Shown here: piece after piece, positions 3,954 through 21,247 of the stretch
How the letters are laid out: every line of letters starts with the position of its first letter
How positions within the stretch are numbered: the first letter of the stretch is position 1
DNA from: a virus
Virus record (IMG/VR): IMGVR_UViG_3300042870_000255
Location: 1 to 26,073 of that record
Reading direction: 5' to 3' (one strand)
Length of the DNA stretch: 26,073 bases
Position numbers and translations under genes: made by a program
The notes under the pieces: generated by a model
What the model saw: the letters and a program-made list of their open reading frames with translations, nothing else
Databases searched by the model: none
What the model was told of the DNA's origin: nothing

Positions 3954-3982
3954 TTTACAAATAACGCAAAAAATGGTATCAT
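3954..3982 (+). promoter_or_regulatory. Sigma70-type promoter, leaderless for the gene at 3989
   Basis: TTTACA (3954-3959) is one base from the -35 consensus. Exactly 17 bases later comes TATCAT (3977-3982), preceded by TGG as in an extended -10. The box ends six bases before the ATG at 3989, so transcription would begin at or next to the start codon. There is no Shine-Dalgarno in the gap. Confidence 0.6.
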
Positions 3983-3988
3983 AGTGGT

Positions 3989-4324
3989 ATGTCACAAAGA
4001 AAACAAAAGGTTGTTCCTGTAGAGAGCAACGCAGAATATGGTATTTATGTCTGGAAGTTGCCCAATGGAAACCTATTTCAGGACGATGATGGTAACACCC
4101 TGAACGTACCATCCGTAAAGTTTGATATTTTAAAAATGAAGTCCTTAGCCGAAGCAGCAGCATATTATGGTCAACCAGATGGAACACCAGAATTTATGGC
4201 AGGTGTGGGTAGGTCAACAGATAATCAGGCAAGAGAAGATATTCAAAGAATGGCTGAAGGTCTAACTCCTTATGGAGATACAGACAACTGGAGAGAGGTA
4301 CTACAAAAAAATGGAAGAAGTTAG
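3989..4324 (+). CDS. Small protein of unknown function, head-operon associated
   Basis: 111 aa; I do not recognise a named family. The N-terminal half contains YGIYVWKLPNGNLF, DDDGNTLNVPS and a helix with AEAAAYYGQPDGTPEFMAG, followed by a charged helix (QAREDIQRMAEGLTPYG). It looks like a compact soluble alpha/beta protein with no membrane segment or Cys/His cluster. The gene has its own promoter-like sequence immediately upstream and no ribosome binding site, so it is probably translated from a leaderless mRNA. Its 3' end overlaps the probable portal start by 14 bases, implying co-translation and a head-assembly or packaging role. This is inference from position only. A small terminase subunit or portal accessory factor are alternatives with no direct support. 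Confidence 0.7.
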   Translation: MSQRKQKVVPVESNAEYGIYVWKLPNGNLFQDDDGNTLNVPSVKFDILKMKSLAEAAAYYGQPDGTPEFMAGVGRSTDNQAREDIQRMAEGLTPYGDTDNWREVLQKNGRS

Positions 4325-5870: not shown

Positions 5871-5893
5871 CACTATAGTAACAAAAGTGTTAT
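5867..5893 (+). repeat. Inverted repeat ATAACACT-N11-AGTGTTAT before the protease gene
   Basis: Perfect 8-base arms (5867-5874 and 5886-5893) start at the portal stop codon and end on the first base of the TATAAT box. Half-sites about two helical turns apart would suit a dimeric DNA-binding protein; a weak RNA hairpin is also possible. The spacer holds a small ACTATAGT palindrome (5872-5879). Confidence 0.4.
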
Positions 5894-5898
5894 ATAAT
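5893..5898 (+). promoter_or_regulatory. -10 box, leaderless-type start for the protease gene
   Basis: A perfect TATAAT lies nine bases before the ATG at 5908. No Shine-Dalgarno exists in the intervening bases and no -35 match is seen at 16-18 bases upstream. The placement suits a leaderless or near-leaderless transcript. Confidence 0.5.
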
Positions 5899-5907
5899 TA
5901 AAATGTT

Positions 5908-7677: not shown

Positions 7678-7706
7678 AAAATGAAAAGGCAGGTGAAATA
7701 AAAAAA

Positions 7707-8741
7707 ATGAGTGATAATATTATTGAAAAGGCTGCAGCAAGTGGTACAGTACTATCCCCACTAGATTCCCCAGGTGCTATGACAGCACAGGGTAACTCTA
7801 ATGACAATGGTGGTGTATTAAACCCAGAGCAGTCACGACAGTTTATTGACTATATCTTTGATGAAATGGTTCTCGCTAATGATGGTCGTAAGGTCGTTAT
7901 GAGAGCCAACACAATGGAATTGGATAAGGTTCGTGTTGGTTCACGTCTTGTTGCTAAGGCAACACAGGCTGAAGATACAGGTTCTAATGCAGCTCCTGCG
8001 TTCACAAAGATTGAACTTACAACAACAAAGTTCCGTCTAGACTACGAACTTTCAACAGAATCCCTAGAGGATAACATTGAAGGAGAGCAGCTAGAAGATC
8101 ACATTGTACGCTTGATGGCAACTCAGTTCGGAAACGACCTAGAAGACATCGCAATTAATGGTGCATCAGGTGCAACATCTGGTTACTACCAGAACACACT
8201 TAATGGATTCATTAAGCAGATTCGTGACACATCCTACTTGGGTGCCCACGAAGCAGCAGCAGCAAAAGCAACAATGACATCTCTATGGGATAATGGTGCA
8301 ACAGGAACAACTCCTCTATCGCTAGAAGCGATTGAAGCAGTTTACAATGCTCTACCTCGTAAGTTCAAGGCTCGCCGTCAGGATCTTAAGTTCTACATGA
8401 ACTCTAAGCACCTACAAGAGCTTATCTCAGCACTTCGTAATATCGGTACAGTACCAGAAGCAGTAGCAGCTCGTGTTATTGATGGAACGCTTCCACAAAT
8501 TGGTGGACCAGCGGGAGCTCAGTACATGATCTTCGGACTTCCAGTACTTGAGGTACCTTTGTACCCAGATAATTACCTAGATCTAACACTCCCAAGCAAC
8601 AGAATCTGGGGCTTCCAGCGTGATGTAACCGTACATCGTGAATTTAAGCCAAAGAAGGACACAATGGAGTACACAGTATACGTCCGTATGGGTGTAGCTG
8701 TAGAAGAGAAGTCTGCAATTGCATACGCAGAACAGGCATAA
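7707..8741 (+). CDS. Major capsid protein (HK97 fold)
   Basis: 344 aa from the ATG at 7707, chosen because AGGTGA at 7691-7696 lies about ten bases upstream and the peptide MSDNIIEKAA looks like a capsid N terminus; a GTG at 7635 in the same frame would overlap the protease gene. NPEQSRQFIDYIFDEMV, then RANTMELDKVRVG, then FRLDYELSTESLEDNIEGE and GNDLEDIAINGASG follow the N-arm, spine-helix and P-domain order of HK97-fold capsid proteins. It forms the icosahedral shell; its direct neighbour upstream is the protease-scaffold. Codon use differs from the flanking genes: of 17 arginines, 15 use CGN and only two AGA, while nearby connector genes use almost only AGA/AGG. This suggests selection for high expression. 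A strong hairpin follows 16 bases after the stop. Confidence 0.92.
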   Translation: MSDNIIEKAAASGTVLSPLDSPGAMTAQGNSNDNGGVLNPEQSRQFIDYIFDEMVLANDGRKVVMRANTMELDKVRVGSRLVAKATQAEDTGSNAAPAFTKIELTTTKFRLDYELSTESLEDNIEGEQLEDHIVRLMATQFGNDLEDIAINGASGATSGYYQNTLNGFIKQIRDTSYLGAHEAAAAKATMTSLWDNGATGTTPLSLEAIEAVYNALPRKFKARRQDLKFYMNSKHLQELISALRNIGTVPEAVAARVIDGTLPQIGGPAGAQYMIFGLPVLEVPLYPDNYLDLTLPSNRIWGFQRDVTVHREFKPKKDTMEYTVYVRMGVAVEEKSAIAYAEQA

Positions 8742-8757
8742 ATAATTCTCTACCTAA

Positions 8758-8786
8758 AACAGGGGCTGCTTTTTGCAGCCCCTGTT
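8758..8786 (+). terminator. Strong hairpin (terminator) after the capsid gene
   Basis: Perfect 12-bp stem AACAGGGGCTGC / GCAGCCCCTGTT with a five-T loop, 16 bases downstream of the capsid stop. It is preceded by a short A run and followed by a pyrimidine-rich but not pure T tail (CTATTCTT). A stem of this length cannot be chance. It may terminate transcription partially or stabilise the capsid mRNA 3' end. Confidence 0.85.
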
Positions 8787-8798
8787 CTATTCTTAGTG

Positions 8799-8817
8799 TA
8801 TAATTTATGATAGGAGG
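8799..8817 (+). promoter_or_regulatory. -10 box and strong ribosome binding site restarting the operon
   Basis: TATAAT at 8799-8804 lies 12 bases after the hairpin, and AGGAGG at 8812-8817 is five bases before the ATG at 8823. No good -35 is found: TTGCAG at 8773 is 20 bases away and inside the hairpin. Promoter call tentative, ribosome site firm. Confidence 0.5.
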
Positions 8818-8822
8818 ATTTT

Positions 8823-9245
8823 ATGTTTAAAGATAAAACAGTTTATGAATTAAAAACAATATGCATGATGTATAATATTGAGTACCCAAGTGGTGCCAAA
8901 AAAGCAGGAATTTTAAAAGCAATTGAAGAATCTGGAATTACTATTGAAAAGTATGAAGAAGACCTAGAAACCCAAGTATCATCTACTGACGCTATTGAAG
9001 AAATAAAAGAAGTTGTTGTTGTAGAAAAAGAAAAAGTAAAAACAACCAAGCAAGATTTTATGCTATTAAAAATGATCCATCCAAGAGGGGCACTTAATGT
9101 TGGAAATGGAGTAGTGTTTACTATTGACCAGCCATTTAAATCCATTTCTAAGGAAAAGGCAAACGATATTTTAGCAAGAGCAAAAGACGAAGTAAGGGAG
9201 GCTACCCCAGAAGAAGTCGCTGGATTTTATGGGGTAAAACTATAG
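8823..9245 (+). CDS. SAP/HeH-like domain protein in the head-completion cluster
   Basis: 140 aa, with a full AGGAGG five bases before its ATG. Residues about 3-37 (TVYELKTICMMYNIEYPSG, then KKAGILKAIEESG) have the helix-extended loop-helix pattern of SAP/HeH/LEM domains, which often bind nucleic acid. A Glu/Val/Lys-rich linker follows (about 45-78), then a small C-terminal module with FMLLKMIHPRGALNVGNGVVF and a final helix. It lies between the capsid gene and the first connector, where many phages carry a small head-completion or decoration gene. A role such as contacting DNA near the portal, or acting as a capsid accessory protein, is inference. The gene is the first after the capsid hairpin and restart signal. 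It ends three bases before the next ATG. Confidence 0.75.
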   Translation: MFKDKTVYELKTICMMYNIEYPSGAKKAGILKAIEESGITIEKYEEDLETQVSSTDAIEEIKEVVVVEKEKVKTTKQDFMLLKMIHPRGALNVGNGVVFTIDQPFKSISKEKANDILARAKDEVREATPEEVAGFYGVKL

Positions 9246-9248
9246 TAA

Positions 9249-10397
9249 ATGAACGAATATTTAAGATCTGATGGAGATACTCTAACAATTCCATATACCG
9301 CACCATCTGGAACAGACTCTATTGTTTTTAATGTGTACGACTTAGATTTAGAAGAGTATATCCAGGCAGATGAGTCTTTGGCAAAAAGAGCAACGGTAAC
9401 GGCAGCAACTGGAAATGGAACAACAATTACCTATACGGCATCTAATACTTTTGCAGTTGGTGACATAGTTACTATTACTGGATTAACTACAACAACTGGA
9501 TCAACTCTTAATAAATCAAATGTTGTAGTAGCAACAAGGTCAAGTTCACAATTTACAGTTACAAACTCAACAGTTGGAACCGCAACATCAACACAATCTG
9601 GTAAAGCGTTACATATAACAACTGCATTTAATTTAATTTTAAATCAAGACGTTACTGCGTATGATAGAAGAATAAAAATTGAAATTCAAAGTATTACTTC
9701 AAACACATACACAGAGGACGAGCTTTATGGAAGCTTAATTAGACCATATGCAACCGCACAAGAAATTGCAACTTATGGAGACATAACAATTGTTTCGTCA
9801 AATCCTGGTCCAGGAGAAGCAACTGAAGCTCAACTAGTAAAGCAAGAAAAAAGAGCAAGATTAGTAATAAATTCTATTCTTAGTGATGCATTTGTATTTA
9901 AATACAAATCTGTTGGAACTCTTGCTCAAGGAACTGACTTTCTTTACTTGGGTCAAAGAATTGAGTCATTTGACAAGATTATAAAAGATGATCAAGTAGT
10001 TTATGATTTATCTGAAGATCCAGAAATAAATCTTTTAGAATACCCCTTGGCAATTTCTTCAAGTAAGTATAACCTAAAGGTTACTTTGTCTGAAGAAAAC
10101 ATTAGCGAGTGGACAGACGTAAGTGTTTTAAAAAATCATGGCTTTTTTGAGAAAAATAGCTCCTATATTGTTCGTGGAGAATATGGGTGGAAGTATATTC
10201 CAGTAGATATTAATCAAGCAGTTTGCGAACTAGCCTCAGATATGATTTGTTCAGATTATGGATATAGAAAGAAAGGCATCAAGTCAATTAAAAACGATGC
10301 GTACTCAATTGAGTTTACTCCAGGATCTGCAACTGGAAACCTAATTGTTGATAATTTAATTGCTCCTTATAAGAGATTTGACATCTGGGCGGTGTAG
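9249..10397 (+). CDS. Head-tail connector (adaptor-like) protein with an inserted beta module
   Basis: 382 aa; the start follows the previous stop by three bases, with only a weak, distant GGGG as ribosome site, so coupled translation is likely. Residues about 165-380 have the helical then beta layout of head-tail adaptors (RPYATAQEIATYGD, then KRARLVINSILSDAFVFKYKS, and a C-terminal AVCELASDMICSDYGYRKKGI helix). The adaptor ring sits beneath the portal. The N-terminal 46 residues are a small beta region, and residues 47-120 form a Thr/Ser/Val-rich module (TYTASNTFAVGDIVTITGL...) that recurs in the distal tail protein at 21247. The protein is clearly longer than typical adaptors because of this N-terminal extension. 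Connector call rests on gene order plus helix pattern. Confidence 0.7.
   Translation: MNEYLRSDGDTLTIPYTAPSGTDSIVFNVYDLDLEEYIQADESLAKRATVTAATGNGTTITYTASNTFAVGDIVTITGLTTTTGSTLNKSNVVVATRSSSQFTVTNSTVGTATSTQSGKALHITTAFNLILNQDVTAYDRRIKIEIQSITSNTYTEDELYGSLIRPYATAQEIATYGDITIVSSNPGPGEATEAQLVKQEKRARLVINSILSDAFVFKYKSVGTLAQGTDFLYLGQRIESFDKIIKDDQVVYDLSEDPEINLLEYPLAISSSKYNLKVTLSEENISEWTDVSVLKNHGFFEKNSSYIVRGEYGWKYIPVDINQAVCELASDMICSDYGYRKKGIKSIKNDAYSIEFTPGSATGNLIVDNLIAPYKRFDIWAV
9387..9608 (+). repeat. Beta module (type 1), copy in the connector protein
   Basis: Encodes residues 47-120 of the connector: the pattern is TITYTASNTFAVGDIVTITG, an Asn-rich turn, then SSQFTVTNSTVGTATST. The same order (YTTTLTHDFLVGDEVQVSG ... 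SNTFKVESTATGSTSTAT) occurs at 21331-21549. Protein-level similarity only, no long nucleotide identity. Confidence 0.55.
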
Positions 10398-10400
10398 AGT

Positions 10401-10844
10401 ATGGTTTGTTTAACTGGATCATCTTACACAATGAAGGCAGATATTTACGTTCCAACAAAAACTCAGGATCAAAATACTGGTGCTGTTATAAAGACTTGGG
10501 TAAATAATAGAACAATATTATGTTCTGCAAAAGGTATTGTTAGAGATACAATATCAGACAATTCCAGTGCCGTTGACATTAAAAACTATTTAACGGCTGT
10601 TAGCAATATTGTAAAAATTAGATCTCTTGCTGCAATAAACTCAGAAGATAGGGTAGTTGCCATTAGAAACTCTTTTGGTGTTGTGTGGAACGAAGATGAT
10701 ACTATATCTAGTCAGGGCGGTATAGATGGTGCAACCATATTTGAGCCTAGAGGAAGCACCCCAATAGTTGACTTTGATGGAAGGGTTCTTGAGTACGAAA
10801 CAGTATTACAAAGACAGGAAATTCAAACCCTGGAGTCATTGTAA
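10401..10844 (+). CDS. Head closure / head-tail joining-like protein
   Basis: 147 aa, start three bases after the upstream stop and no clear Shine-Dalgarno. Position and length match the small beta-barrel head-closure (stopper) proteins that follow the adaptor in siphophages. YTMKADIYVPTKTQDQNTGA reads like the N-terminal strand region of this class, where a typical feature is a statement of both a quantity type and its conversion loop, and GRVLEYETVLQRQE closes the chain. No catalytic or metal motif is seen. In the virion it would plug the portal channel and attach the tail. Identification rests mainly on synteny. The ATG at 10844 of the next gene overlaps its TAA by one base. Confidence 0.6.
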   Translation: MVCLTGSSYTMKADIYVPTKTQDQNTGAVIKTWVNNRTILCSAKGIVRDTISDNSSAVDIKNYLTAVSNIVKIRSLAAINSEDRVVAIRNSFGVVWNEDDTISSQGGIDGATIFEPRGSTPIVDFDGRVLEYETVLQRQEIQTLESL

Positions 10845-11569
10845 TGGCTAGAAGAATAAACACTTCATCCCTAGACTCCGTAACTAAAGCCAAAAAAAAG
10901 AATCATATTAGAACTGGAAATATGGTTGAAAAAATTGTTGCAACCGTAAAGTTTAATTCAGAGCTTATTAATCAAATAAATAATGAGCAAAAGCCAAGAA
11001 TACAAGAGCAGGGTTTAAAGCTAATAGCTACCTACTTTGAAGCATATGTTGATAACTTGGCAAGAATGAATCAAAGTAAATTTCACCACTTATACGAGCC
11101 AGGAAAATCTGGAAGTAAAGATTCAAGACTTTTTGAAGCATCAGTTTCTGGTAAAACAAGACCAACCTTAACTTATAATTTTACCCAATCAGTAATTCCT
11201 AGTGAAAGCGGATACGTTTTTCAAAATAGGGCTTTTGTTATGGAAAATGGAATACCACTAAACATATCCGCAAAAAATTCAGAATATCTTAGGTTTGAAT
11301 ACGAAGGTGAGTTCTATTCAAAAAAACAAGTATATGTGGCAAATCCTGGAGGGGCTGAGGTTGAAAACTCATTCTCAGAAACCTTTAATGCCTTTATGAC
11401 CTCAATGGCAGATGATGTTTTAAGAGAATTAGGTTTCTTCCAAAAAATTGAGCGTGGTATAGCAAATGAATCTAGGATTGCACTTGCTAGGGTTTCTACT
11501 GGTAAAATAGAGGGTATGGCTGCAGAAGCAGCTAAATCTGCAAATAGCATTGTGAGGGGGCTAAAGTAA
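10844..11569 (+). CDS. Neck / tail-completion protein (HK97 gp10-like by position)
   Basis: 241 aa, start overlaps the preceding TAA by one base and GGAG at 10832 serves as ribosome site. The N terminus is basic (ARR...KAKKKNH), followed by a long helix region (QEQGLKLIATYFEAYVDNLA) and a beta region, then a C-terminal helix rich in Ala. This layout and the slot between head-closure and tail-terminator genes fit the neck/tail-completion family of siphophages. Its codon use is ordinary for this genome: 13 of 14 arginines are AGA/AGG, a useful contrast with the capsid gene. No enzymatic signature. Role by synteny only. Confidence 0.6.
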   Translation: MARRINTSSLDSVTKAKKKNHIRTGNMVEKIVATVKFNSELINQINNEQKPRIQEQGLKLIATYFEAYVDNLARMNQSKFHHLYEPGKSGSKDSRLFEASVSGKTRPTLTYNFTQSVIPSESGYVFQNRAFVMENGIPLNISAKNSEYLRFEYEGEFYSKKQVYVANPGGAEVENSFSETFNAFMTSMADDVLRELGFFQKIERGIANESRIALARVSTGKIEGMAAEAAKSANSIVRGLK

Positions 11570-12111
11570 TGAACTACAAAAAATTGCCTATTAAAATTAT
11601 TACAGACTATTTATGGGATCAGTTTAATAAAGACTATCTTGCAGCTAAGGTAGCAAATCCAAAAAATACTGGAGAAACAGACGCTGCCTATGAAACTAGA
11701 ATAGCTGGAATTTGTGTTTGGTCTCCATATAGATACCCAGACTTTGTTCCATTTTTTCCAGTATCAGAAAGCCTTGGTGCTAGTACCGAAACGACCCCAT
11801 TTGTTATATATGACTTTCTATACACCCCATCATCAAATACCCAGTGGTTTATTGACTGTGAAAAGGCAGTACTAACTATAGTTGGAGAGATGTCTCAAAT
11901 TTACTATGTAAGAAGCTTTATATATGAGGCATTAAAGAAATTTGATATATCTGCCCAAGAAATTAATGACTTTGCTCAAGATTCAGATGTCAAGTTTAAG
12001 TATGTTAAGTGTGATCAAGCTAACTACATTCTTGACGAAAAAAGAATTGACAGCTTTAAGCCTAAATTCGTAACATCCTTGGTATTAACCTATGACTATA
12101 CTAAAGTATAG
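11569..12111 (+). CDS. Tail terminator-like protein
   Basis: 180 aa. The ATG overlaps the preceding TAA by one base; GAGGGG at 11554-11559 is a good ribosome site. Just before the major tail gene, siphophages encode the tail terminator, a hexameric ring capping the tube at the neck end. The sequence has the expected alpha/beta mix: N-terminal helix (IKIITDYLWDQFN), central strands (TPFVIYDFLYTPSS), a helix-strand pair (AVLTIVGEMSQIYYVRSFIYEAL), and a closing strand (FVTSLVLTYDYTK). Residues about 25-45 (NPKNTGETDAAYETRIAG) look like an inserted loop. Its last codons carry an AA-spaced inverted repeat that ends on the stop codon. Confidence 0.65.
   Translation: MNYKKLPIKIITDYLWDQFNKDYLAAKVANPKNTGETDAAYETRIAGICVWSPYRYPDFVPFFPVSESLGASTETTPFVIYDFLYTPSSNTQWFIDCEKAVLTIVGEMSQIYYVRSFIYEALKKFDISAQEINDFAQDSDVKFKYVKCDQANYILDEKRIDSFKPKFVTSLVLTYDYTKV
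12096..12111 (+). repeat. Inverted repeat CTATACT-AA-AGTATAG ending on the tail-terminator stop codon
   Basis: Perfect 7-base arms with an AA spacer; the final TAG is the stop codon itself. As RNA it gives a 6-bp C-G-closed stem with a UAAA loop, the same loop as the repeat at 839-854. TATAGT (12107-12112) overlaps the right arm and lies four bases before the ATG at 12117. Confidence 0.5.
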
Positions 12112-12116
12112 TAGTT

Positions 12117-12170
12117 ATGGTATTATTATCTAGAGGAAGCAAGCCACGAAAGTCAAATCGTTTAAAATGA
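12117..12170 (+). CDS. Possible 17-residue basic leader peptide before the major tail gene
   Basis: ATG at 12117, 17 codons and TGA at 12168-12170, giving MVLLSRGSKPRKSNRLK. Six of 17 residues are Arg or Lys. A TATAGT box four bases before the ATG, with no ribosome site, would make it leaderless. Its stop sits one base before the major tail gene's AGGAGGTG, so a ribosome ending here would be placed to reinitiate at 12192. An ORF this short can occur by chance; the placement is what makes it worth listing. Confidence 0.35.
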   Translation: MVLLSRGSKPRKSNRLK

Positions 12171-12171
12171 C

Positions 12172-12190
12172 AGGAGGTGTAAATTTACAC
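12172..12190 (+). promoter_or_regulatory. Strong ribosome binding site overlapped by a perfect palindrome before the major tail gene
   Basis: AGGAGGTG at 12172-12179 is an excellent Shine-Dalgarno but 12 bases from the ATG at 12192, longer than usual. GTGTAAATTTACAC at 12177-12190 is a perfect 14-base palindrome that begins inside it and ends one base before the start codon. Folding as RNA would shorten the effective spacing or partly mask the site; as DNA it could bind a dimeric protein. Confidence 0.5.
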
Positions 12191-12191
12191 T

Positions 12192-12875
12192 ATGGCAATT
12201 GGTAATGCAAATAATATTATCGTTGGTGCAGGTGCTCTTTATGTAGCAAATGCAGCATCGGTAGACACAGAACTTACAGAAGAGCACTTGGTACACGCCA
12301 CAGGCGTTGCTGGAACTCTAGCTGCATCATCCGCAGGAACTCTACAAGATCCAAACAATCTTGTAGCAAGCTCCAAGTGGGAGTCCGTTGGTTATACATC
12401 AGAAGGTGCTGAACTTTCTTTTGAACCAGATTACGGCGAAGTACAAGTTGATCAACTTCTTGACGTAGCTAAGATCTTCAAGCAAGGTCAAAGAGTTATG
12501 CTTAACACAACTCTTACAGAAGCTACCCTTGAGAATCTTCTTGTAGTCGTTGGTGGAGCTGCAGGTGACTTGACAGCATCAGGTGCAGACCTAGATGTTT
12601 TCAACATCAACGCAGGATCGCTAGGTGTTTCCCCAATTGAAAGAAGTCTTTGCTTGGTAGGTCCTGGACCTGAAGAAAAGGCTGGTGCAGGTGAAAAGGT
12701 AGAAAGAATCTACGTTGCTTATCGTGCACTTTCAATGGATACGGTAACAGTTGGTATTCGTAGAAATGAAGCAACGGTTTTCCCTGCTTCATTCCGTCTA
12801 CTTGGCTCAACAGACAATTCCGTTGGCGGAAACGCATCATATGGAAAGATTATTGACAGAGTATTTACTCCGTAA
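12192..12875 (+). CDS. Major tail (tube) protein
   Basis: 227 aa, beginning AIGNANNIIVGAGALYVANAAS, the typical opening strand of siphophage tube proteins (a statement of position value and unit). KWESVGYTSEGAELSFEPDYGEV matches the conserved central strand region in which the tube protein switches to beta-sheet, and VERIYVAYRAL with ATVFPASFRLLG gives the C-terminal strands. It polymerises as stacked hexameric rings around the tape measure. Location between tail terminator and chaperones is canonical. Its Arg codons are mixed (3 CGT, 5 AGA), so the bias seen in the capsid gene is weaker here. It is followed within 20 bases by a strong hairpin, as the capsid gene is. Confidence 0.85.
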   Translation: MAIGNANNIIVGAGALYVANAASVDTELTEEHLVHATGVAGTLAASSAGTLQDPNNLVASSKWESVGYTSEGAELSFEPDYGEVQVDQLLDVAKIFKQGQRVMLNTTLTEATLENLLVVVGGAAGDLTASGADLDVFNINAGSLGVSPIERSLCLVGPGPEEKAGAGEKVERIYVAYRALSMDTVTVGIRRNEATVFPASFRLLGSTDNSVGGNASYGKIIDRVFTP

Positions 12876-12895
12876 ATATAAATAACTAAATATTG

Positions 12896-12925
12896 ATAAT
12901 GGGCAGGAGAAATCCTGCCCATTAT
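12896..12925 (+). terminator. Strong hairpin (terminator) after the major tail gene
   Basis: Perfect 13-bp stem ATAATGGGCAGGA / TCCTGCCCATTAT around a GAAA (GNRA) tetraloop, 20 bases after the stop codon. There is no T run after it, so it may be a weak terminator, a processing/stability element or a transcription pause. Confidence 0.8.
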
Positions 12926-12949
12926 TGCTATCATAAATAAAATATAGGA

Positions 12950-12973
12950 TATAATTAAAGGGAACAAAGGAGA
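12950..12973 (+). promoter_or_regulatory. -10 box and ribosome binding site before the tail chaperones
   Basis: TATAAT at 12950-12955, and AAAGGAGA at 12966-12973, five bases before the ATG at 12979. A TTGCTA at 12925 is 19 bases upstream, a poor -35. The same hairpin-then-TATAAT-then-RBS order follows the capsid gene. Confidence 0.5.
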
Positions 12974-12978
12974 ATTTA

Positions 12979-13314
12979 ATGGCAACCAAAGTATATGAAA
13001 GTGTTGAGCTAGAGCTTCTAGACGGCAAAGTAGTAAACATCAAGCCCCTAAATCTAAAAAACTTAAGAGAAGTAATGAAAGAATGGGCAAAAGCCCAAGA
13101 AGCTAAGACAGAAGATGAGTTTTTAGACACTCTCATTAGCTGCACCCAGATTGCTTTTAAGCAATATGACACTAGTCTTGCTGAAGATCGTGACGCATTA
13201 GAAAATGCTCTTGATATTCAAACAATGTACAAAATCTTGGAGGTGGCTGCTGAAATCAAGCTGAACGACCCAAACCTCGTAGCGATGGCTCAGGAACTGG
13301 TTGGAACCAACTAG
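12979..13314 (+). CDS. Tail assembly chaperone, short (G-type) form
   Basis: 111 aa starting after AAAGGAGA. The chain begins ATKVYESVELELLDGKVVNI, a small N-terminal strand region, followed by helices (LREVMKEWAKAQEAKTEDEF..., IQTMYKILEVAAEIK). This is the usual build of the short tail chaperone that, with the frameshifted form, holds the tape measure during tail assembly. It lies between the major tail and tape measure genes. Terminates at TAG 13312-13314, on which an inverted repeat ends. It carries the frameshift heptamer CCCAAAC at 13269-13275. Confidence 0.85.
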   Translation: MATKVYESVELELLDGKVVNIKPLNLKNLREVMKEWAKAQEAKTEDEFLDTLISCTQIAFKQYDTSLAEDRDALENALDIQTMYKILEVAAEIKLNDPNLVAMAQELVGTN

Positions 13315-13655
13315 ATCTTGCGGAGCTAGAGGCAGAAGTGTTTTTGCTTGGGCATTGGAAAGACTACGATGAACTTGAAACTAGTTTATCAATGCCAGAA
13401 CTAACAGCAACATTAAAAGCTATGTACAGTGCAGAATCAAGAAAAAATAAATTTATGGCATCCCTACAGGGTGTCAGTCTAGATTCTTCTGATAGCGGTG
13501 ACACTTCTGAAAAGCAGCCATCAACATTAAAAGACATACAGGCGAGAGCCATGGAAAGACTTTCTGGTGGTAATGAAAAATCATCATCAGCAGTAAAATA
13601 CGGATTCACCCCAGACATGGGTGTTGCATACGATATTATAAGGAGTGGTGAGTAA
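12979..13655 (+). CDS. Tail assembly chaperone, frameshifted (GT-type) form
   Basis: Inferred product of a -1 slip at CCCAAAC: bases 12979-13275 then re-read from 13275 in the other frame to 13655, giving 225 aa (99 shared, 126 new). The new part contains LDLAELEAEVFLLGHWKDY, then a linker and a C-terminal AYDIIRSGE that ends at the tape measure start. The downstream frame has no ATG and only a GTG at 13338 without a ribosome site; it is closed upstream at 13251, so the slip must lie between 13254 and 13314, and the heptamer is the only canonical slippery site there. Length and order match the GT chaperone class, which recruits the tape measure through its T part. Confidence 0.8.
13269..13275 (+). 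other. -1 ribosomal frameshift site CCCAAAC
   Basis: The heptamer has the X XXY YYZ form, with zero-frame codons CCA and AAC re-pairing as CCC and AAA. It is in the right frame and window for the chaperone fusion. Confidence 0.85.
13297..13314 (+). repeat. Inverted repeat CTGGTTGG-AA-CCAACTAG ending on the short chaperone stop
   Basis: Eight-base arms with one G-T pair, centred 30 bases after the slippery site, and ending with the TAG stop of the short form. It may act as the downstream frameshift stimulator, although 21 bases from heptamer to stem is longer than the usual 5-9. Confidence 0.45.
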
Positions 13656-16600
13656 TGGCTGATGTGAATGCCACATTTGTATATGATGCAGATTTTACAT
13701 CAGCTATTTCTCAAACTCGTTTACTTTCAAGAGAACTTAGTACTCTAAATAACTCATTTAACTCACTAGATAAAGATGCAAGAAAAGTAAGAGATAGACT
13801 TGGCGAAATCTTCAAGGCAGACGTTGGAGATCTAGGTGCCTTTAGTGCACGAACCGTAGACATTACTTCCAATATGGACAATTTTGGAAAAGCCCTAGAT
13901 AGAAACAAATTAAAGCTTCGTGACTATGCTCGTGAAGCAAGAAAAGCCTTTCAAGCAGATAGCAATTCTAGAAAGCTCGCAGAAGATCAGGTAAGAAGAA
14001 GCAGGGCAAACCTAGTAGAAATGGGCATGGATGCTTCTGGAAGACGTAAAGGAATTCTAGTAACTCCACTTAAACTTGACATGTCTGATGTGCAGACACA
14101 ATTAGAAGTTTCAAGAAAACAGTTTTCTATATTTAATAAACTTGTTAATGACGGTGCCACACAACTTATTAACTGGGGTAAGAATACCCAATGGGCTGGT
14201 AGACAGCTTACAGTAGGTCTGACGGTACCTATGACCATATTTGCAACTACAACCATTAAGGCATTTAATGAAGTAGATAAAGAACTTACAAGATTTCAAA
14301 AGGTTTATGGATCAGATTTAGTTGGTGCAACAACTCAGGCAACAAATGCCATTAGACAACAGGTTCAGGCTCTTGCGGTAGATATTGCTGGTGCTTATGG
14401 TATAGCAGCAAAAGAAACAGCAGGTCTAGCAGCAGATCTAGCAGCTACTGGTCTTGAGGGACAAAAACTTCTTGACTCAATTAAACAAACAACAAGACTT
14501 TCTGTACTTGGTGAAATTGACAGACAAGATGCAATGAAGACTACTTTGTCTTTGCAAAATGCATTTAATATGAGCACCCAAGAATTAGCAGAATCAATTA
14601 ACTTCCTCAACGCAGTTGAAAACCAAACTTCACTATCTTTGCAAGACTTAACGGAAGCTATTCCAAAGGTTGGACCAGTTGTTCGTGCTCTTGGTGGAGA
14701 TGTAAAAGATCTTTCTGTACTTATGGTTGCAATGAAAGAAGGAGGTATTAATGCAGCAGAAGGTGCAAACGCATTAAAGTCTGGTTTAGCTTCTCTCATT
14801 AATCCAACAAAAGCAGGTTCTGAAGTTGCCAAACAATATGGAATTGACCTTGAAGATATTGTAAAGAGAAATAAGGGACAGCTCCTACCTACCGTTCTTG
14901 AATTCCAAAAAAGTATGCAGACCCTTGATGATCTTGGTAAAGCAAAAATTATTGAACAGTTGTTTGGTAAGTACCAGTTTGCTCGTATTTCCGCACTCTT
15001 TGACAACTTAAATACTCAGGGTTCACAGACAAAACAAGTTATTGAACTTATGTCTGCATCAAATACAGACCTTGCAAGAATTGCAAATGCTGAAATCAAG
15101 ACCCTTACAGAATCTGCATCAATGAGATTCCAAAGATCTATGGAGGCAATTAAAGCAGCCCTACTACCAGTTGGCGAAGCTATTGTTAATTCTGTTCTTC
15201 CATTTATGGAAAGATTTGCAGGGGTTCTTGATAGAATAGTTTCATTTGCAAAAAACCTTCCAGGTCCAATAAAAAGTTTTCTAAAAATAGCAGGTGGCTT
15301 AACAGCAATTGCTGGTCCACTTATTATGATGACTGGTGTTCTTGGTAACTTCCTTGGATACATTGTTAAAGGTGCAATGGCATTTGTTAATCTTGGTAGA
15401 ACAATTCGTGGACTACCAGTTGAAAAGTTTTCACTTATGGATGATGCTCAAATTGCAGCATCAAAAGCAACAGACACAGTAACTATATCTATTGAAAAAC
15501 AGAAGTCTGCAATGATTGGCTTAAACAAGTTAATGATGGACTACTATACATTAATTAATAAGCAAGCAGCAAGAACCCCAAATTTATTTAATTCAACACC
15601 ACAAAGTAGTACCATTGGTGGGTCTCCTGTTGTTCCAAAGGGAGTAAAAACTCTTCCAATTATTAGAAGACAATCTGGTGGAGCTGCATGGGTTCCAGGA
15701 AATGGTAGTGGAGATAAGATTCCAGCACTACTAGAGCCTGGTGAGTTTGTAATTAATCGTAATGCTGCAAAGCAATATGGTGGAGTTTTAGAAGACATAA
15801 ATAATGGAACCCCAAGATTCCAATCTGGCGGTAAAATTCCTGGATTTATTGAGGGTACTCCTAAAAAGAGCAAAATGTCACAAACAGAGCCAGTAGACGT
15901 GCCTGAAAGATCAACTTTAAAAACTGCAGATGCTGTAGATACAAGTAATCAGTCTAGTTCAAATAGTTCAGGTGCAAAAGTAAAATTCCCAAAAACAAAA
16001 AGCGAAGACAAAAGATGGGATCCTAATTTTATTTTTGGTTTATCTAAGGGAGAGAATGAATTTATAAATGATTTTCATTTTGGAAAGGGCACCCCTGAAA
16101 ATCCTAAGCCTAAGATGAAAGCCCATCTTGCTTTTAGAGATAGGGTTTTATCAGAGATTGCCTCAATGGATGGAGATCCAAGACAAAGAGCCTTTTTATT
16201 AAAATCTCTTAATAGAGGAATTAACCCATCTGATCTCAGTTCTCAATTAATACTTTCAAGAGTCCTTGAATCCCTTATTGATTCTCCAGAGTATGAAGCA
16301 ATAAAATCCTCATCTATGAAAGCTAGAATAGCAGCAGCAATAGTTATGCCAAGGCTTAGATCTAGAGATGTTCAGTCTTTTAAAGAAATTGATCCAACTC
16401 TTGATACTAGATATGGCGGTAGATCACAGCCGTGGAATGATAAGGGAGTAACGGCTAGATCTGAAAGCTATAGACAAGCTTTTGATGAATTTGATAAAAA
16501 AACTGGTCTTCCAAAGGGTGCTCAGTCGGAAGCAAAGTCTCTTGGACTATCAGAAAAATTAATGAAAATATATTTTGGCTCAGATGATTCTAATGTTAAG

Positions 16601-19600
16601 AGTAGAGGAACTAGACATTCGGCACATGGGGCTAGGTTTAGATTTGTTGGTAGACGTATAGTTAAGGCAATTCGTGGTATTAAAATGCCAGAATCTTATG
16701 CAACAAAACTTGCAACAATTAGACAATCAATGGCTAATGCAAATAAAGAAGCCATGTCGTCTAATGTTCCATTAACAGAACTTGGAACAAGACAATCAAG
16801 AATTGGTGGATACAGTTCTGCAATTCCTGGTGTAAATGGAGTTTATGAAATTAACGGTCAGCGTTATGTTGTCAAAGGTCATGACACATATGACTCTGCA
16901 AAAGCAGAAGCAGACATGGCAAGAATTACAAGAGATGTCTTTGGACTACAAACTCCAAATCAAGAAGCGGTTAGAATCAGGCATCCAGAAACTGGAGAGC
17001 TTATGTTTGCCGTCCGATCTCCATACAATGAAGCCTTTGCAAAAACAACAGGCAGGTTTACAGAAGACTCCGCTTTTGATCAATTAATTGCATCCATTGC
17101 AAGAAGAGACAAGGATCTTCAAGCAGACAACTTATTTGATAATATCGTAACTGATGTTGGTCAAGCAGGAATTATGAGTAAGGCTTCTCAGCCAAGAGTT
17201 AAGACTGGTCCTACAAACAGTGCACTTGAACAACTAGCAATTAATCTTGGAATGACCAAGGGTGGTGCTAGAAGTCATGGTGCAGAAGCTTGGAATGCAG
17301 CAACCGCAAATATGACAGATGATCAAATTATTTCTAGAATAAAAGAAGCAGCAGCAAAAGCAAAGTCCAAACTTTCTACTGCAGATATTCCAGAAGATTT
17401 TAAATATATTGCTAGAGACTTAGATGATATTGCATCTGCAGATCTTGGTCCCTTTGTTGCTCATCTTAGAACAGTTTTTCCAAAAGAAAAGAAGCCAGCA
17501 ACAGCAGCAGCAATAGCAAAGAAAGAACAACAAAAATTATTAGATCGTGAAGAAAGACAATCCGCACTTGATGCAGGTTATCCAGCATGGGCAATGCAAA
17601 CTGGTGCTTGGGTTCCTGGAAAGGGGGAGGGAGACAGAGTACCTGCCCTACTTGAGCCAGGAGAGTTTGTTGTAAATAAAAAAGCAGCTAAACAATATGG
17701 CGGAATGCTTGAAGACATGAATTGGAATGTCGCTCCTAGATTTATGAGAGGAACTCCTCCAATGGGGCAAATGCCAGGAATGACAACAGGTGCAGTTTCT
17801 GGTGGTCTTATGGCAGCAAGTATGGCTAGCTCAATGATGCTACCTGTTAATCAATTTACTGACGCATTAAATAAATCAATTATGGCACTATCTGCTTTTA
17901 CTGGAATTCTTTCTGCCCTTCAAATGCTTGGTGGACGTATGGGCGGTGGTATTGGAGAAAAACTTTCTGGCGTAATGACAGCTAAAGATGGATCAAAGGC
18001 TGCTAGATTCAAAAGATCTGGTGACTTATATTCAGCATTTGGAAAAGATTCAATTAAAACTGGTGGGTCAAATCTAAAGTCAGTAGTTGGAAAAGGCATG
18101 TCTATGGGCTCTAGAGGCACAGCATTAAAAACAGGAATTGGTGCAGTTGCAAGAGGTGGTGCAATGCTTGGAATGGGATCTGCATTTGGTGGCTTAGGGG
18201 CAGGTGCAGCATTAGCAACTAATCCAGTTGGATGGGCAATATTAGCAATAGGTGCTGCAACCCTAGCAATTACTAAATATAAAAAATCTTTAGATTCTGC
18301 TAAAAAATCAGCAGAGCAAGCATTTGGTGCAAGTAAAGCGGAAGCAGAAGCATTTGGGGTAGAGCTTAAAAATATTGGCGAAACAATAAAGGCTAATCAA
18401 GAATATACAAAGATGATTGGTGCACAAGCACAACAATCACAATCCACTTCACAAAGGCTAGACCCAGAAAAAGAGTCAGCCCTACTTGGTGCAAACGAAG
18501 ATCTTACAAAGAGATTAAGAAACCTATCTGAAACTAGATTAGCAACAACAGTAGGTTTGGGAGGGGATAGATCTGCTCAAGCAGCATCACTATTAACTTC
18601 AAAATATGCCTCATTAATACAGCAAGGATTCTCAGAAGAAGATGCAAATGTAATGGTTAGAACTTTAGCTAAAGCATCTGGTGCAATGGATGCTTATGCA
18701 CAGTCGGTTAATAAGTTTGGAATGATAAAGGCAGACGACCCTGCTTCAATTATCAAGGCTCAAATGGAAGGTGTTAAAACTTTTTCAAACATAGGCGGGC
18801 TTCTTGACCAAGGGGAAAGGGGTGGATTTGCAGCAGGAATTAAATCTGTTGTAGAGCAAATTAATTTACTTCCACCAGAAGACCAATACACTGGACTAAA
18901 GGCTCTTTTGACTCAAATGGAAAATCTAGATACAAGACAGTTAAAAATTGCACAACAGGCAATTGTTGATATGACAAAAGAAACATATGGAGAAGGATCT
19001 CAGTTATTTAACACCCAAAGAGCTATTCAAGAAAGAACCAATAATTCATTTAGCTTTAAAAATCTTTCTACATACGATGATGTATTTACAAAAGTATCTT
19101 CTGGTCAGGGTATATTCGGTGGTATTGAAAATGAACTAGCAACTAGAGTCTCAGCAGCCCTAACGTCAGCATTTGAAACTGGTGCCATTACTGATCAGCA
19201 ACTTAAGGACTATGAGTTAAGAATTGAAGCAGATCCTTCCAGCATAAGTCAAATTGAAGCAGAACTTGACGTTGTTACAAGAGATCGTCAAATAAAAATT
19301 GAGGCAACAATAAAACTTGAAGAACAGCTTGCAGAACAATATGAAAAAATTAATAAAGAAATTATTATTAAACAAAACGCCTTACAGTCTGCAATAGAAG
19401 CTAAGAATGCAGCAATTGAAAAAGAAGAAGAAGCTTTTAAGGCATCTCAAAAAGCGGGTCAAAAGTTCATCAAGGGTAAGCAAGAAGAAATTAAAGTTAT
19501 TGATGAAAAAGCAACTAAAGAAATAGAGGCTATTGAAAAACAAACAAATGCTTACTTAAAATCTCTTACAAAAGAAGATGACGCAAACAAGTTTAGATCA

Positions 19601-21247
19601 GAGCAAAGAGGAACAATGCTCGGTGGCTTGGGTGCTCTTGCAGAGGGAGATGTATTTGGATTCCTAGATGCTAGACAAGCAGCAGAAGAAAATGCAAGGC
19701 AGTTCTCAGCATCTGAAGAAATAAAGGTAATTGAAGAAAAAAGAAAAGCAGCTACTGAGGCAATTGATCTTGAAAGAGATGCCCGTATTGAGGCAATTCA
19801 GGCAGAAATTGATAAAAAGCAAGAAGCCCTTGAAAGACAAGCAGATGGTCATGAAGCACATATGACTAGGCTTCAAAAAGAACGTGACACAATGGCTACA
19901 AATGCCTCAAAGACAATTGCTGAAATGCAAGCAACCGCAGATTCAATTGCAGGAATTAAAGCCAACCCAGTAATACTTGACTGGCTTACTAGCATGAAGG
20001 ATAAAGGAAAGGCAGCAGCAGCACAAGCAGCACTTATTAATTATCTTGTAAAACATCCAGAAGCAACTGTTACAGAGGCATTAAATAAAGTTCGTTCAGA
20101 TCTACATCAATCAGACCAGTCCTTTCAATCAGGTATGAATTCTAATGACGGAGAACGTGCAGGTGGGGCAGGATCTGGTGGACAGTATACTCAAACATAC
20201 ACACCAGCACCAACAACATCTGCTGGATCTTCTGGTATGACGGGTGGAAGGTCTGGAAGAGCTCCAGGTTACACAGTAACTCAAGCAAGTGGTGGATATA
20301 TTTCTGGTCCAGGTACATCTACATCAGATTCAATTCCTGCTCGTTTATCAGATGGAGAGTATGTAATTAAAGCATCAGCAGTAGATCAATATGGTGTTGG
20401 AATGATGAACTCAATTAATGAACAAAAATTTGCTGATGGTGGTCAGGCAGTCCTAGATGATTACTCAAGAGTAACTTATGGTGGAAAAACCTTTAATGCT
20501 AGAACAGTTAGAATGCTTAAAAGAGCAGAAGAATCTTATGGTTCTGGATTTGGATTCTACCAAGGATCTTATAGCACTGGAGTTTCAGCTTCAAAGGGAA
20601 CACACGATGGTGGTGGTGCTGTAGATATTAAGCCACCTGCAAATATTGATAAGGCACTAAAGGCTTTGGCATCAGCTGGATTCTGGGCAAAATGGAGAGG
20701 CACAATGAGTCCTCCACATATTCATGCCTTGGCAACAGGAGATGCTCAACTTTCATCAGCAGCAAGAAGACAGCTTGGTTTGCCAGCAGACGGTGGATAT
20801 GAAGGAGATCAGGTAGAAGTTGGCACAAGAAGTATAGAGGATGCAATTAAAGAAGCAGCAGCAGCTGGACAGGGAACAATAGAAGAGCTCACAAGCCTTA
20901 TGACTCAGGGTGCAGCAGCAGTATACACACCATTGACTGGAAGACAATTTGGCGGATCCATGACAATGAACAAGCCTTATCTTGTTGGTGAAAATGGACC
21001 AGAGGTCGTAATGCCTTATGGATCAGGAAGCAGAGTTGATCCAAGGTTTAATGTTCCATCAGGTTCTTCAATTGCTACAGTTTCTCAGGACTATGGTGAT
21101 ATAATTAATAGTAATTCTTATAGCAATATGGTAGTTAATCTTTCCGTTAGCGGTGTCAATGATCCAAATAAAGCTGCAGATAGGGTTATAGAGATACTTA
21201 ATAAAGAAACAGGCAGAAGAAACCATAGCAGGAAGATGAGTAGATAA
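13655..21247 (+). CDS. Tail tape measure protein with a candidate kinase-like insert and a C-terminal peptidase-like domain
   Basis: 2530 aa. AGGAG at 13641 and ATG overlapping the previous TAA by one base. In order: N-terminal coiled region; about 245-395, the phage-tail-measure core (LAADLAATGLEGQKLLDSI... MVAMKEGGINAAEGANALKSG); hydrophobic helix 545-572; first PGEF...KQYGG motif 676-722; a non-tape-measure block about 723-1316 that includes a kinase-like stretch at about 1050-1290; second PGEF motif 1317-1363; hydrophobic segment 1509-1540; coiled coil about 1885-2080; Ser/Gly-rich linker; third related motif 2213-2260; GTHDGGGAVDI/PHIH peptidase-like domain about 2290-2375; and a final LVGENGPEVVMPYG. 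It sets tail length and passes ahead of DNA into the host. At about 0.15 nm per residue the full length would give about 380 nm, but the inserts probably do not contribute. Identity is firm; insert functions are inference. Confidence 0.92.
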   Translation: MADVNATFVYDADFTSAISQTRLLSRELSTLNNSFNSLDKDARKVRDRLGEIFKADVGDLGAFSARTVDITSNMDNFGKALDRNKLKLRDYAREARKAFQADSNSRKLAEDQVRRSRANLVEMGMDASGRRKGILVTPLKLDMSDVQTQLEVSRKQFSIFNKLVNDGATQLINWGKNTQWAGRQLTVGLTVPMTIFATTTIKAFNEVDKELTRFQKVYGSDLVGATTQATNAIRQQVQALAVDIAGAYGIAAKETAGLAADLAATGLEGQKLLDSIKQTTRLSVLGEIDRQDAMKTTLSLQNAFNMSTQELAESINFLNAVENQTSLSLQDLTEAIPKVGPVVRALGGDVKDLSVLMVAMKEGGINAAEGANALKSGLASLINPTKAGSEVAKQYGIDLEDIVKRNKGQLLPTVLEFQKSMQTLDDLGKAKIIEQLFGKYQFARISALFDNLNTQGSQTKQVIELMSASNTDLARIANAEIKTLTESASMRFQRSMEAIKAALLPVGEAIVNSVLPFMERFAGVLDRIVSFAKNLPGPIKSFLKIAGGLTAIAGPLIMMTGVLGNFLGYIVKGAMAFVNLGRTIRGLPVEKFSLMDDAQIAASKATDTVTISIEKQKSAMIGLNKLMMDYYTLINKQAARTPNLFNSTPQSSTIGGSPVVPKGVKTLPIIRRQSGGAAWVPGNGSGDKIPALLEPGEFVINRNAAKQYGGVLEDINNGTPRFQSGGKIPGFIEGTPKKSKMSQTEPVDVPERSTLKTADAVDTSNQSSSNSSGAKVKFPKTKSEDKRWDPNFIFGLSKGENEFINDFHFGKGTPENPKPKMKAHLAFRDRVLSEIASMDGDPRQRAFLLKSLNRGINPSDLSSQLILSRVLESLIDSPEYEAIKSSSMKARIAAAIVMPRLRSRDVQSFKEIDPTLDTRYGGRSQPWNDKGVTARSESYRQAFDEFDKKTGLPKGAQSEAKSLGLSEKLMKIYFGSDDSNVKSRGTRHSAHGARFRFVGRRIVKAIRGIKMPESYATKLATIRQSMANANKEAMSSNVPLTELGTRQSRIGGYSSAIPGVNGVYEINGQRYVVKGHDTYDSAKAEADMARITRDVFGLQTPNQEAVRIRHPETGELMFAVRSPYNEAFAKTTGRFTEDSAFDQLIASIARRDKDLQADNLFDNIVTDVGQAGIMSKASQPRVKTGPTNSALEQLAINLGMTKGGARSHGAEAWNAATANMTDDQIISRIKEAAAKAKSKLSTADIPEDFKYIARDLDDIASADLGPFVAHLRTVFPKEKKPATAAAIAKKEQQKLLDREERQSALDAGYPAWAMQTGAWVPGKGEGDRVPALLEPGEFVVNKKAAKQYGGMLEDMNWNVAPRFMRGTPPMGQMPGMTTGAVSGGLMAASMASSMMLPVNQFTDALNKSIMALSAFTGILSALQMLGGRMGGGIGEKLSGVMTAKDGSKAARFKRSGDLYSAFGKDSIKTGGSNLKSVVGKGMSMGSRGTALKTGIGAVARGGAMLGMGSAFGGLGAGAALATNPVGWAILAIGAATLAITKYKKSLDSAKKSAEQAFGASKAEAEAFGVELKNIGETIKANQEYTKMIGAQAQQSQSTSQRLDPEKESALLGANEDLTKRLRNLSETRLATTVGLGGDRSAQAASLLTSKYASLIQQGFSEEDANVMVRTLAKASGAMDAYAQSVNKFGMIKADDPASIIKAQMEGVKTFSNIGGLLDQGERGGFAAGIKSVVEQINLLPPEDQYTGLKALLTQMENLDTRQLKIAQQAIVDMTKETYGEGSQLFNTQRAIQERTNNSFSFKNLSTYDDVFTKVSSGQGIFGGIENELATRVSAALTSAFETGAITDQQLKDYELRIEADPSSISQIEAELDVVTRDRQIKIEATIKLEEQLAEQYEKINKEIIIKQNALQSAIEAKNAAIEKEEEAFKASQKAGQKFIKGKQEEIKVIDEKATKEIEAIEKQTNAYLKSLTKEDDANKFRSEQRGTMLGGLGALAEGDVFGFLDARQAAEENARQFSASEEIKVIEEKRKAATEAIDLERDARIEAIQAEIDKKQEALERQADGHEAHMTRLQKERDTMATNASKTIAEMQATADSIAGIKANPVILDWLTSMKDKGKAAAAQAALINYLVKHPEATVTEALNKVRSDLHQSDQSFQSGMNSNDGERAGGAGSGGQYTQTYTPAPTTSAGSSGMTGGRSGRAPGYTVTQASGGYISGPGTSTSDSIPARLSDGEYVIKASAVDQYGVGMMNSINEQKFADGGQAVLDDYSRVTYGGKTFNARTVRMLKRAEESYGSGFGFYQGSYSTGVSASKGTHDGGGAVDIKPPANIDKALKALASAGFWAKWRGTMSPPHIHALATGDAQLSSAARRQLGLPADGGYEGDQVEVGTRSIEDAIKEAAAAGQGTIEELTSLMTQGAAAVYTPLTGRQFGGSMTMNKPYLVGENGPEVVMPYGSGSRVDPRFNVPSGSSIATVSQDYGDIINSNSYSNMVVNLSVSGVNDPNKAADRVIEILNKETGRRNHSRKMSR
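15680..15820 (+). repeat. PGEF...KQYGG motif, copy 1 in the tape measure
   Basis: Residues 676-722: GAAWVPGNG then GDKIPALLEPGEFVIN then AAKQYGGVLEDIN. It closely resembles copy 2 at 17603, and opens the intervening block. Confidence 0.8.
16802..17524 (+). other. Candidate protein-kinase-like fold inside the tape measure
   Basis: Residues about 1050-1290. GVYEINGQRYVVKGHD could be the beta-2/beta-3 hairpin with Lys1074; AEADMARITRDVFGL the alpha-C helix with Glu1085; GELMFAVRSPYNEAF the beta-5/hinge. DNLFDNIVTDVGQAGI has Asp1158-x4-Asn1163, as in the catalytic loop of kinase-like and aminoglycoside-phosphotransferase-like folds (D-x4-N). The usual DFG-type Asp is not clear after it (GIMSKAS). 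A helical C-terminal part follows. Pattern only, not proof. Confidence 0.4.
17603..17743 (+). repeat. PGEF...KQYGG motif, copy 2 in the tape measure
   Basis: Residues 1317-1363: GAWVPGKGEGDRVPALLEPG then EFVVNKKAAKQYGGMLEDMN. It aligns with copy 1 over about 47 residues, with diverged nucleotides, so the duplication is old. It closes the intervening block. Confidence 0.8.
20291..20434 (+). repeat. Related PGEF/DGEY-type motif, copy 3 in the tape measure
   Basis: Residues 2213-2260: GGYISGPGTSTSDSIPARLS then DGEYVIKASAVDQYGVGMMN. Keeps the core of copies 1 and 2 (IPA-L--GE-VI---A--QYG), and precedes the peptidase-like domain. Confidence 0.7.
20522..20779 (+). other. Peptidase M15/LAS-like domain at the tape measure C terminus
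   Basis: Residues about 2290-2375. SASKGTHDGGGAVDI supplies His2317-x6-Asp2324 and PHIHAL supplies His2355 or His2357, the zinc-ligand order of M15/LAS peptidases that cut peptidoglycan peptides. The Glu that normally sits three residues before the last ligand is Ser or Pro here, so activity is uncertain. Confidence 0.6.

Follow-up and report, generated by a model that had tools for sequence, protein, structure and literature searches.

Organisation of the locus

The window, by which is meant the whole stretch of DNA analysed here, is a linear IMG/VR virus record of 26,073 bases. It includes an open reading frame (ORF) for a tail length tape measure protein (TMP), an assignment that is backed by many PHROGs families of that name, and within this ORF a conserved N-terminal core, two boundary linkers and a cargo cassette with a kinase-like domain can be delineated (Table 1). 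A hydrophobic stretch lies on either side of the kinase-like domain, at TMP residues 541-571 and 1408-1427. Additionally, two features were noted by eye: an M15-type peptidase pattern (GTHDGGGAVDI ... PPHIHA) in the C-terminal part of the TMP (window about 20480-20850), for which no Pfam match was reported, and the apparent C-terminal part of a ribonucleotide reductase (PSGTVSQ motif) at window 3-857, directly upstream of the virion gene block.

Table 1. Features of the TMP gene in the window, with positions in the window and residue numbers of the TMP.
Feature	Position	Strand	Basis
TMP ORF, 2530 aa	13655..21247	+	PHROGs tail length tape measure protein, best E 7e-115; Pfam PhageMin_Tail, E 4e-28
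Conserved TMP N-terminal core (PhageMin_Tail, residues 241-438)	14375..14968	+	Pfam PF10145
First boundary linker, residues 674-726, starts WVPGNGSGDKIPALLEPGEFVINRNAAKQYGGVLEDINNG	15674..15832	+	Protein-level likeness to residues 1315-1366, none at DNA level; L213 homology stops at 726
Cargo cassette, residues 727-1313	15833..17593	+	Unrelated 261-aa stretch instead in close relative L213 (blastp)
Kinase-like domain (predicted), residues 1008-1292	16676..17530	+	Family alignments; AlphaFold2 pLDDT 90.4, pTM 0.87; Foldseek PDB matches listed all kinases
Glycine-rich loop, residues 1052-1064 (GYSSAIPGVNGVY)	16808..16846	+	G1052, S1054, G1062 invariant
K1074, putative catalytic (beta-3) lysine	16874..16876	+	57/57 clusters; strand in model; hhalign onto HipA K181
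E1085, putative alpha-C glutamate	16907..16909	+	57/57 clusters; in helix after Lys strand; hhalign onto HipA E203
Putative hinge, S1122-P-Y1124	17018..17026	+	S1122 invariant; model
Putative catalytic loop, R1150-RDKDLQAD-N1159 (D1154 putative base, N1159 metal)	17102..17131	+	D1154, L1155, N1159 in 57/57 clusters
DFG-like motif, D1167-V1168-G1169 (putative metal Asp)	17153..17161	+	D1167 57/57, G1169 56/57; after tight beta-hairpin in both models
Second boundary linker, residues 1314-1366 (AWVPGKGEGDRVPALLEPGEFVVNKKAAKQYGGMLEDMN)	17594..17752	+	blastp vs L213; linker comparison

Conservation of a predicted kinase active site

A preliminary description of this DNA had proposed a kinase-like fold hidden in the TMP at residues 1050-1290 (window 16802-17524), and both the TMP ORF and the described order of motifs were confirmed. 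Conservation was assessed over 57 clusters of the family at 85% identity, in which contigs that had been fetched more than once are not counted twice. K1074, E1085, D1154, L1155, N1159, D1167, G1052, S1054, G1062 and S1122 are 100% conserved, followed by G1169 (98%), R1150 (96%) and D1152 (96%), such that the conserved loop reads R1150-x-D1152-x-D1154-L-x3-N1159. Because the catalytic residues stay fixed while identity to the window domain falls to 23% among relatives, this conservation is beyond chance. Judged from the alignment, the invariant residues are the putative protein-kinase set: beta-3 Lys, alpha-C Glu, catalytic-loop D-x4-N and DFG-like D(V)G.

The earlier choice of K1074 (in YVVK) and E1085 as catalytic Lys and Glu thus holds in all 57 clusters, and the hinge-like SPYNEAF was also placed correctly, with S1122 invariant. 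In contrast, the catalytic loop had been read four residues out of register as D1158-x4-N1163: position 1158 is Gly in 32 of the 57 clusters and N1163 is variable, whereas the real pair, D1154/N1159, is found in every cluster. Similarly, the second metal Asp had been called not obvious, and yet it corresponds to D1167 within IVTDVG (57/57), which lies in the IVTD that had itself been quoted. With this metal Asp present and the catalytic set invariant, nothing marks the enzyme as degenerate, and an AMPylating relative, which had also been suggested, is not needed to account for a missing residue. A degenerate or pseudokinase reading was set aside, as the catalytic positions are invariant across the 57 clusters.

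Predicted fold

The AlphaFold2 model of the window domain, built from the family alignment, is confident (Table 1), as is an independent AlphaFold2 model (pLDDT 91.0, pTM 0.89) of the corresponding domain of L164, which is 28% identical to that of the window. In the window model, K1074 lies in a strand and E1085 in the next helix (18 residues), S1122 ends the fifth strand at the hinge, and the hinge is followed by a helix, the catalytic loop, a tight two-strand hairpin and then D1167. The strand-then-helix arrangement of Lys and Glu and the short hairpin between N1159 and D1167 are present in both models. The layout predicted by the window model is that of a kinase N-lobe and catalytic segment.

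The structure prediction and PDB fold search that had been proposed as a check returned kinases throughout the listed matches, HipA and PI3K included. For the window model, all 50 of the 50 PDB matches listed are kinases, with CtkA first (E 5e-4) and with PKA, HipT, BMPR2, IRAK4, PI3K and HipA among the others; for the L164 model, the 50 of 50 listed are again all kinases, mostly p38, and also AAK1, MAP4K4 and RIOK1. The best E values of PDB fold matches across the two models were 5e-4 to 6.5e-4. Viral fold matches included phage proteins annotated as PI3/PI4-kinases. TM-scores to solved kinases are low (0.20-0.38) and rmsd values are mostly 6-20 A among the matches listed for both models, so that the domain departs from known kinases in the overall arrangement of its lobes or in its C-lobe. 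On these models, the domain is predicted to be a divergent, compact relative of kinases. Two confident models with kinases throughout their listed matches, together with the invariant catalytic set, thus bear out the proposal of a kinase-like fold inside the TMP.

Sequence searches with residues 1008-1292 against Pfam, PHROGs, PADLOC and the PDB gave no usable match. The best match to a kinase family was HipA_2 (E 0.023), found in 3 of 52 members and not significant; scores against the HipA families PF07804 and PF20613 stayed below the curated thresholds, and the window record had no match to either model. Matches to Pfam Acyl-CoA_dh_M (7e-5, 3 members), NanE and NIL were rejected, as no more than 5 of the 52 members share any one of them and they do not fit the conserved motifs. 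Additionally, the family was compared by hhalign with a HipA profile in which E. coli K-12 HipA was combined with nine homologues from plasmids. The match was short and weak (P 0.02-0.05, 41 columns), and it placed K1074 on K181 and E1085 on E203; among control profiles, comprising the reversed and 200 column-shuffled HipA profiles, that score was reached once (1/200 shuffles). A position of the family near HipA-like kinases is therefore a lead suggested by the profiles, not proof of membership.

Distribution of the family

Scans of viral contigs, for which sub-alignments of the family were used, found relatives of the kinase-like domain on about 154 distinct IMG/VR contigs, a number counted by hand from a locus list in which some contigs were fetched more than once. 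In counts that include these re-fetched contigs, 180 of the 181 ORFs closed at the 5' end have a TMP N-terminus, the sole exception being a 389-aa fragment (L104), and the 136 ORFs with both ends closed have lengths of 1790-4462 aa (median 2965); every usable ORF is long. The kinase-like domain is thus essentially always found within TMPs. No relative was found in bacterial and archaeal genomes by a pattern-based scan that could miss distant members, and three tblastn queries of a sequenced-phage collection either hit the GEFV linker alone or had no match. A kinase in a TMP was likewise not found in the open literature, within a limited library in which absence is not proof.

The domain as optional, exchangeable cargo

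TMPs were sampled by their N-terminal core alone, and 54 were long enough to judge. The kinase-like domain is present in 25 of these and absent from 29, and the median TMP length is 2742 aa with the domain versus 2318 aa without. In a blastp comparison, the TMPs of the window and of L213 match over residues 1-726 (72% identity) and 1314-2528 (32%), with no in-register match between; residues 722-982 of the L213 protein are unrelated cargo where the window has the kinase, so that 261 residues replace window residues 727-1313. The edges of the cassette coincide with the two copies of the linker, WVPGxGxGDxxPALLEPGEFVxNxxAAKQYGGxLEDxN. The possibility that the linkers are recent DNA-level recombination repeats was rejected, since no blastn match exists between the two copies. 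Only 44 of 136 complete TMPs have the linker motif on each side, and the pair is a boundary feature of the window and some relatives, no general rule.

Where the domain is present, its sequence and that of the core can be strikingly out of step: TMPs with 92-93% identical cores may have kinases that are only about 35% identical. For instance, L150, L160, L175, L178 and L179 share cores of about 89-93% identity with L183 and L163, and yet their kinase domains are only 34-39% identical to those of the latter, indicating repeated replacement of kinase alleles. In 272 pairs, core identity exceeds kinase identity by more than 30 points, whereas only one pair differs by more than 20 points in the reverse direction. 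Overall, core and kinase similarity are correlated (Spearman 0.57; 0 of 999 permutations as high). Identity of the kinase core to that of the window is 32-87% in 11 of the 12 TMPs compared; in L048 pairwise kinase identity to the window is 18%, and yet profile alignment puts it in the family. The stretch before the kinase domain has 12-26% identity to the window in distant pairs. In two close pairs, dN/dS is 0.19-0.20 in the domain versus 0.37-0.40 in the stretch before it. Presence and absence, allele exchange and low dN/dS together characterise the domain as one that is optional, is exchanged between TMPs and evolves under purifying selection.

Several other segments were noticed in further TMPs. 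L100 (ORF 4683-16367, 3895 residues) has, beside the family kinase, a second and different kinase-like segment at about residues 3000-3160 (GHGDMHPGNLLLKGKKTLGAFDWG; Pfam ABC1 E 0.003, APH E 0.014), with an OmpA domain (E 1e-18) N-terminal of it; this second segment had no match in sequenced phages. In L024 (ORF 4930-18735), residues 1655-1788, shortly after the kinase, resemble an HAD/PNKP-like phosphatase (E 6e-5, below the curated cut-off). The kinase-bearing TMP of L037 (ORF 3090-16151) has a cytidylyltransferase-like (HIGH) nucleotidyltransferase segment at residues 731-860 (E 1.9e-4, above the cut-off), and one kinase-less TMP also has a cytidylyltransferase-like match (E 6.7e-4). Residues 2876-2910 of the TMP of L016 (ORF 6796-18369) match DUF2786 (E 2.7e-6).

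Interpretation and alternatives

It is probable that TMP residues 1008-1292 or thereabouts form a divergent kinase-like domain, catalytically complete by prediction, that is an optional and exchangeable cargo, delivered with the DNA and acting on a host target. It is established that the TMP occupies the lumen of the tail, from which it is ejected during infection, and that it interacts with the membrane (summarised in PMC13277306), and injection of the domain with the DNA would follow by analogy with this biology. We infer the catalysis, substrate, delivery, timing and refolding of the domain as follows. The TMP would be packed in the tail tube in a largely unfolded or helical state and would exit at infection, ahead of or with the DNA, after which the kinase-like domain would fold at or inside the host membrane; refolding must be assumed, because a folded domain of about 28 kDa is not expected to fit the tail lumen. 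The flanking hydrophobic stretches would allow the domain to be tethered near the membrane. ATP-Mg would then be bound via K1074, E1085, N1159 and D1167, and the gamma-phosphate transferred, with D1154 as the base, to a host protein or a small molecule, ahead of all phage gene expression. By analogy with HipA-type kinases, a component of defence, stress or translation would be a likely target.

Alternatively, a kinase-type enzyme could be active in the producing cell during assembly, modifying tail proteins, chaperones or itself, and not be delivered at all. The producer cell makes the TMP late, and action of the domain prior to packaging would be possible; however, 29 of the 54 comparable TMPs do without the domain, which is therefore not needed for assembly, and the exchange of alleles while the TMP core remains constant fits an outward-facing effector better. 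We consider an assembly role unlikely. There is also a small chance that the fold is kinase-like and the chemistry different, either AMPylating (SelO-like) or that of a small-molecule or lipid phosphotransferase (PI3K- or APH-like). The occurrence of PI3K among the PDB fold matches and of PI3/PI4-kinase-annotated phage proteins among the viral ones would be in keeping with this, as would the lack of any close relative in sequence from which the chemistry of the family could be fixed, but the complete K/E/D-x4-N/D(V)G set requires nothing unusual, and protein Ser/Thr kinases head the PDB matches of each model.

In pseudokinases, at least one catalytic position has usually been lost. A pseudokinase or purely structural spacer, in which the fold is kept without catalysis, is quite improbable here, since all five catalytic positions are 100% invariant in a domain that otherwise diverges, and since the domain is optional; the length of a TMP does matter, and TMPs with the domain have the greater median length, as a spacer would suggest. 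Finally, the domain could be specific to TMPs and have no kinase fold, its motif order arising by chance. Nothing was above threshold in the Pfam, PHROGs and PDB sequence searches, and TM-scores are low, which would suit this explanation; nevertheless, it is very improbable, given two confident models with nothing but kinases among their listed PDB matches, and an invariant catalytic set that sits in the right secondary-structure elements.

If the domain is a delivered kinase-like effector, an ATP-dependent kinase in a TMP would imply an enzyme at work within the host as soon as infection begins and ahead of phage transcription, and this from a module present in close to half of the TMPs sampled around that of the window. 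Exchange between otherwise near-identical TMPs, with unchanging catalytic residues, is as expected for an effector or counter-defence weapon. A broader reading is plausible, if somewhat short of probable: that a widespread, unnamed kinase family is virion-borne cargo of siphophage TMPs, forming with nucleotidyltransferase, HAD phosphatase and second-kinase segments a polymorphic, recombining effector repertoire that phosphorylates host targets at DNA entry, and that the TMP may be a general scaffold for effector delivery. Whether TMPs deliver working enzymes to the cytoplasm becomes directly testable, and the kinase-like fold would gain a sequence-divergent branch that current family libraries miss.

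Comparison with known systems

Among kinases, the domain is most readily compared with HipA, HipT and CtkA, which rank among the top PDB fold matches of the window domain and which it resembles in compact size and in the order of its motifs (VxK, NE or AE, D-x4-N, D-x-x). There is, however, no significant sequence similarity, and the spacing in E. coli HipA differs, with 22 residues from K to E and 23 from D to D versus 11 and 13 in the TMP domain. Unlike HipA, the TMP domain has no HipB partner or N-subdomain and is embedded in a structural phage protein; in place of a hipBA-type toxin-antitoxin gene pair, the domain lies inside the TMP ORF in essentially all cases. A divergent kinase-type loop is also apparent in HHTV-1 gp13 (L210, 9436-12738, 1100 aa), in which D-x4-N is followed by D-x-G (GNRDIHGGNFIVDDDGVPQPVDNG). 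The second-best viral fold match, BFVD R4T6E8, agrees with gp13 in length. The gp13 gene lies two genes before the gpF-like (MuF-like) head gene of Halovirus HHTV-1, and is thus head-proximal and not a TMP, and gp13 has no significant sequence similarity to the TMP domain.

Wall-degrading domains in tape measure proteins are known already, and relatives sampled here also have M23, NlpC/P60, SLT and CHAP domains in their TMPs. The TMP of mycobacteriophage TM4, as cited in PMC13277306, has a peptidoglycan hydrolase motif, and enzyme-bearing TMPs of this type likewise hold the enzyme module inside the TMP. Peptidoglycan-degrading domains work on the cell wall during entry, whereas the kinase would presumably act in the cytoplasm, because ATP is required. 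The Sle1/Tme effectors of contractile injection systems are TMP-derived carriers with exchangeable functional domains that are ejected from a phage-tail-like tube (PMC13277306, in which the word 'kinase' is absent); their modules sit at the C-terminus and are part of injection systems of bacteria, whereas the kinase-like domain described here is in the middle of a TMP and in a phage. Enzyme-bearing TMPs and phage kinases are thus both already known, and what appears new is their combination, in a large, sequence-divergent family.
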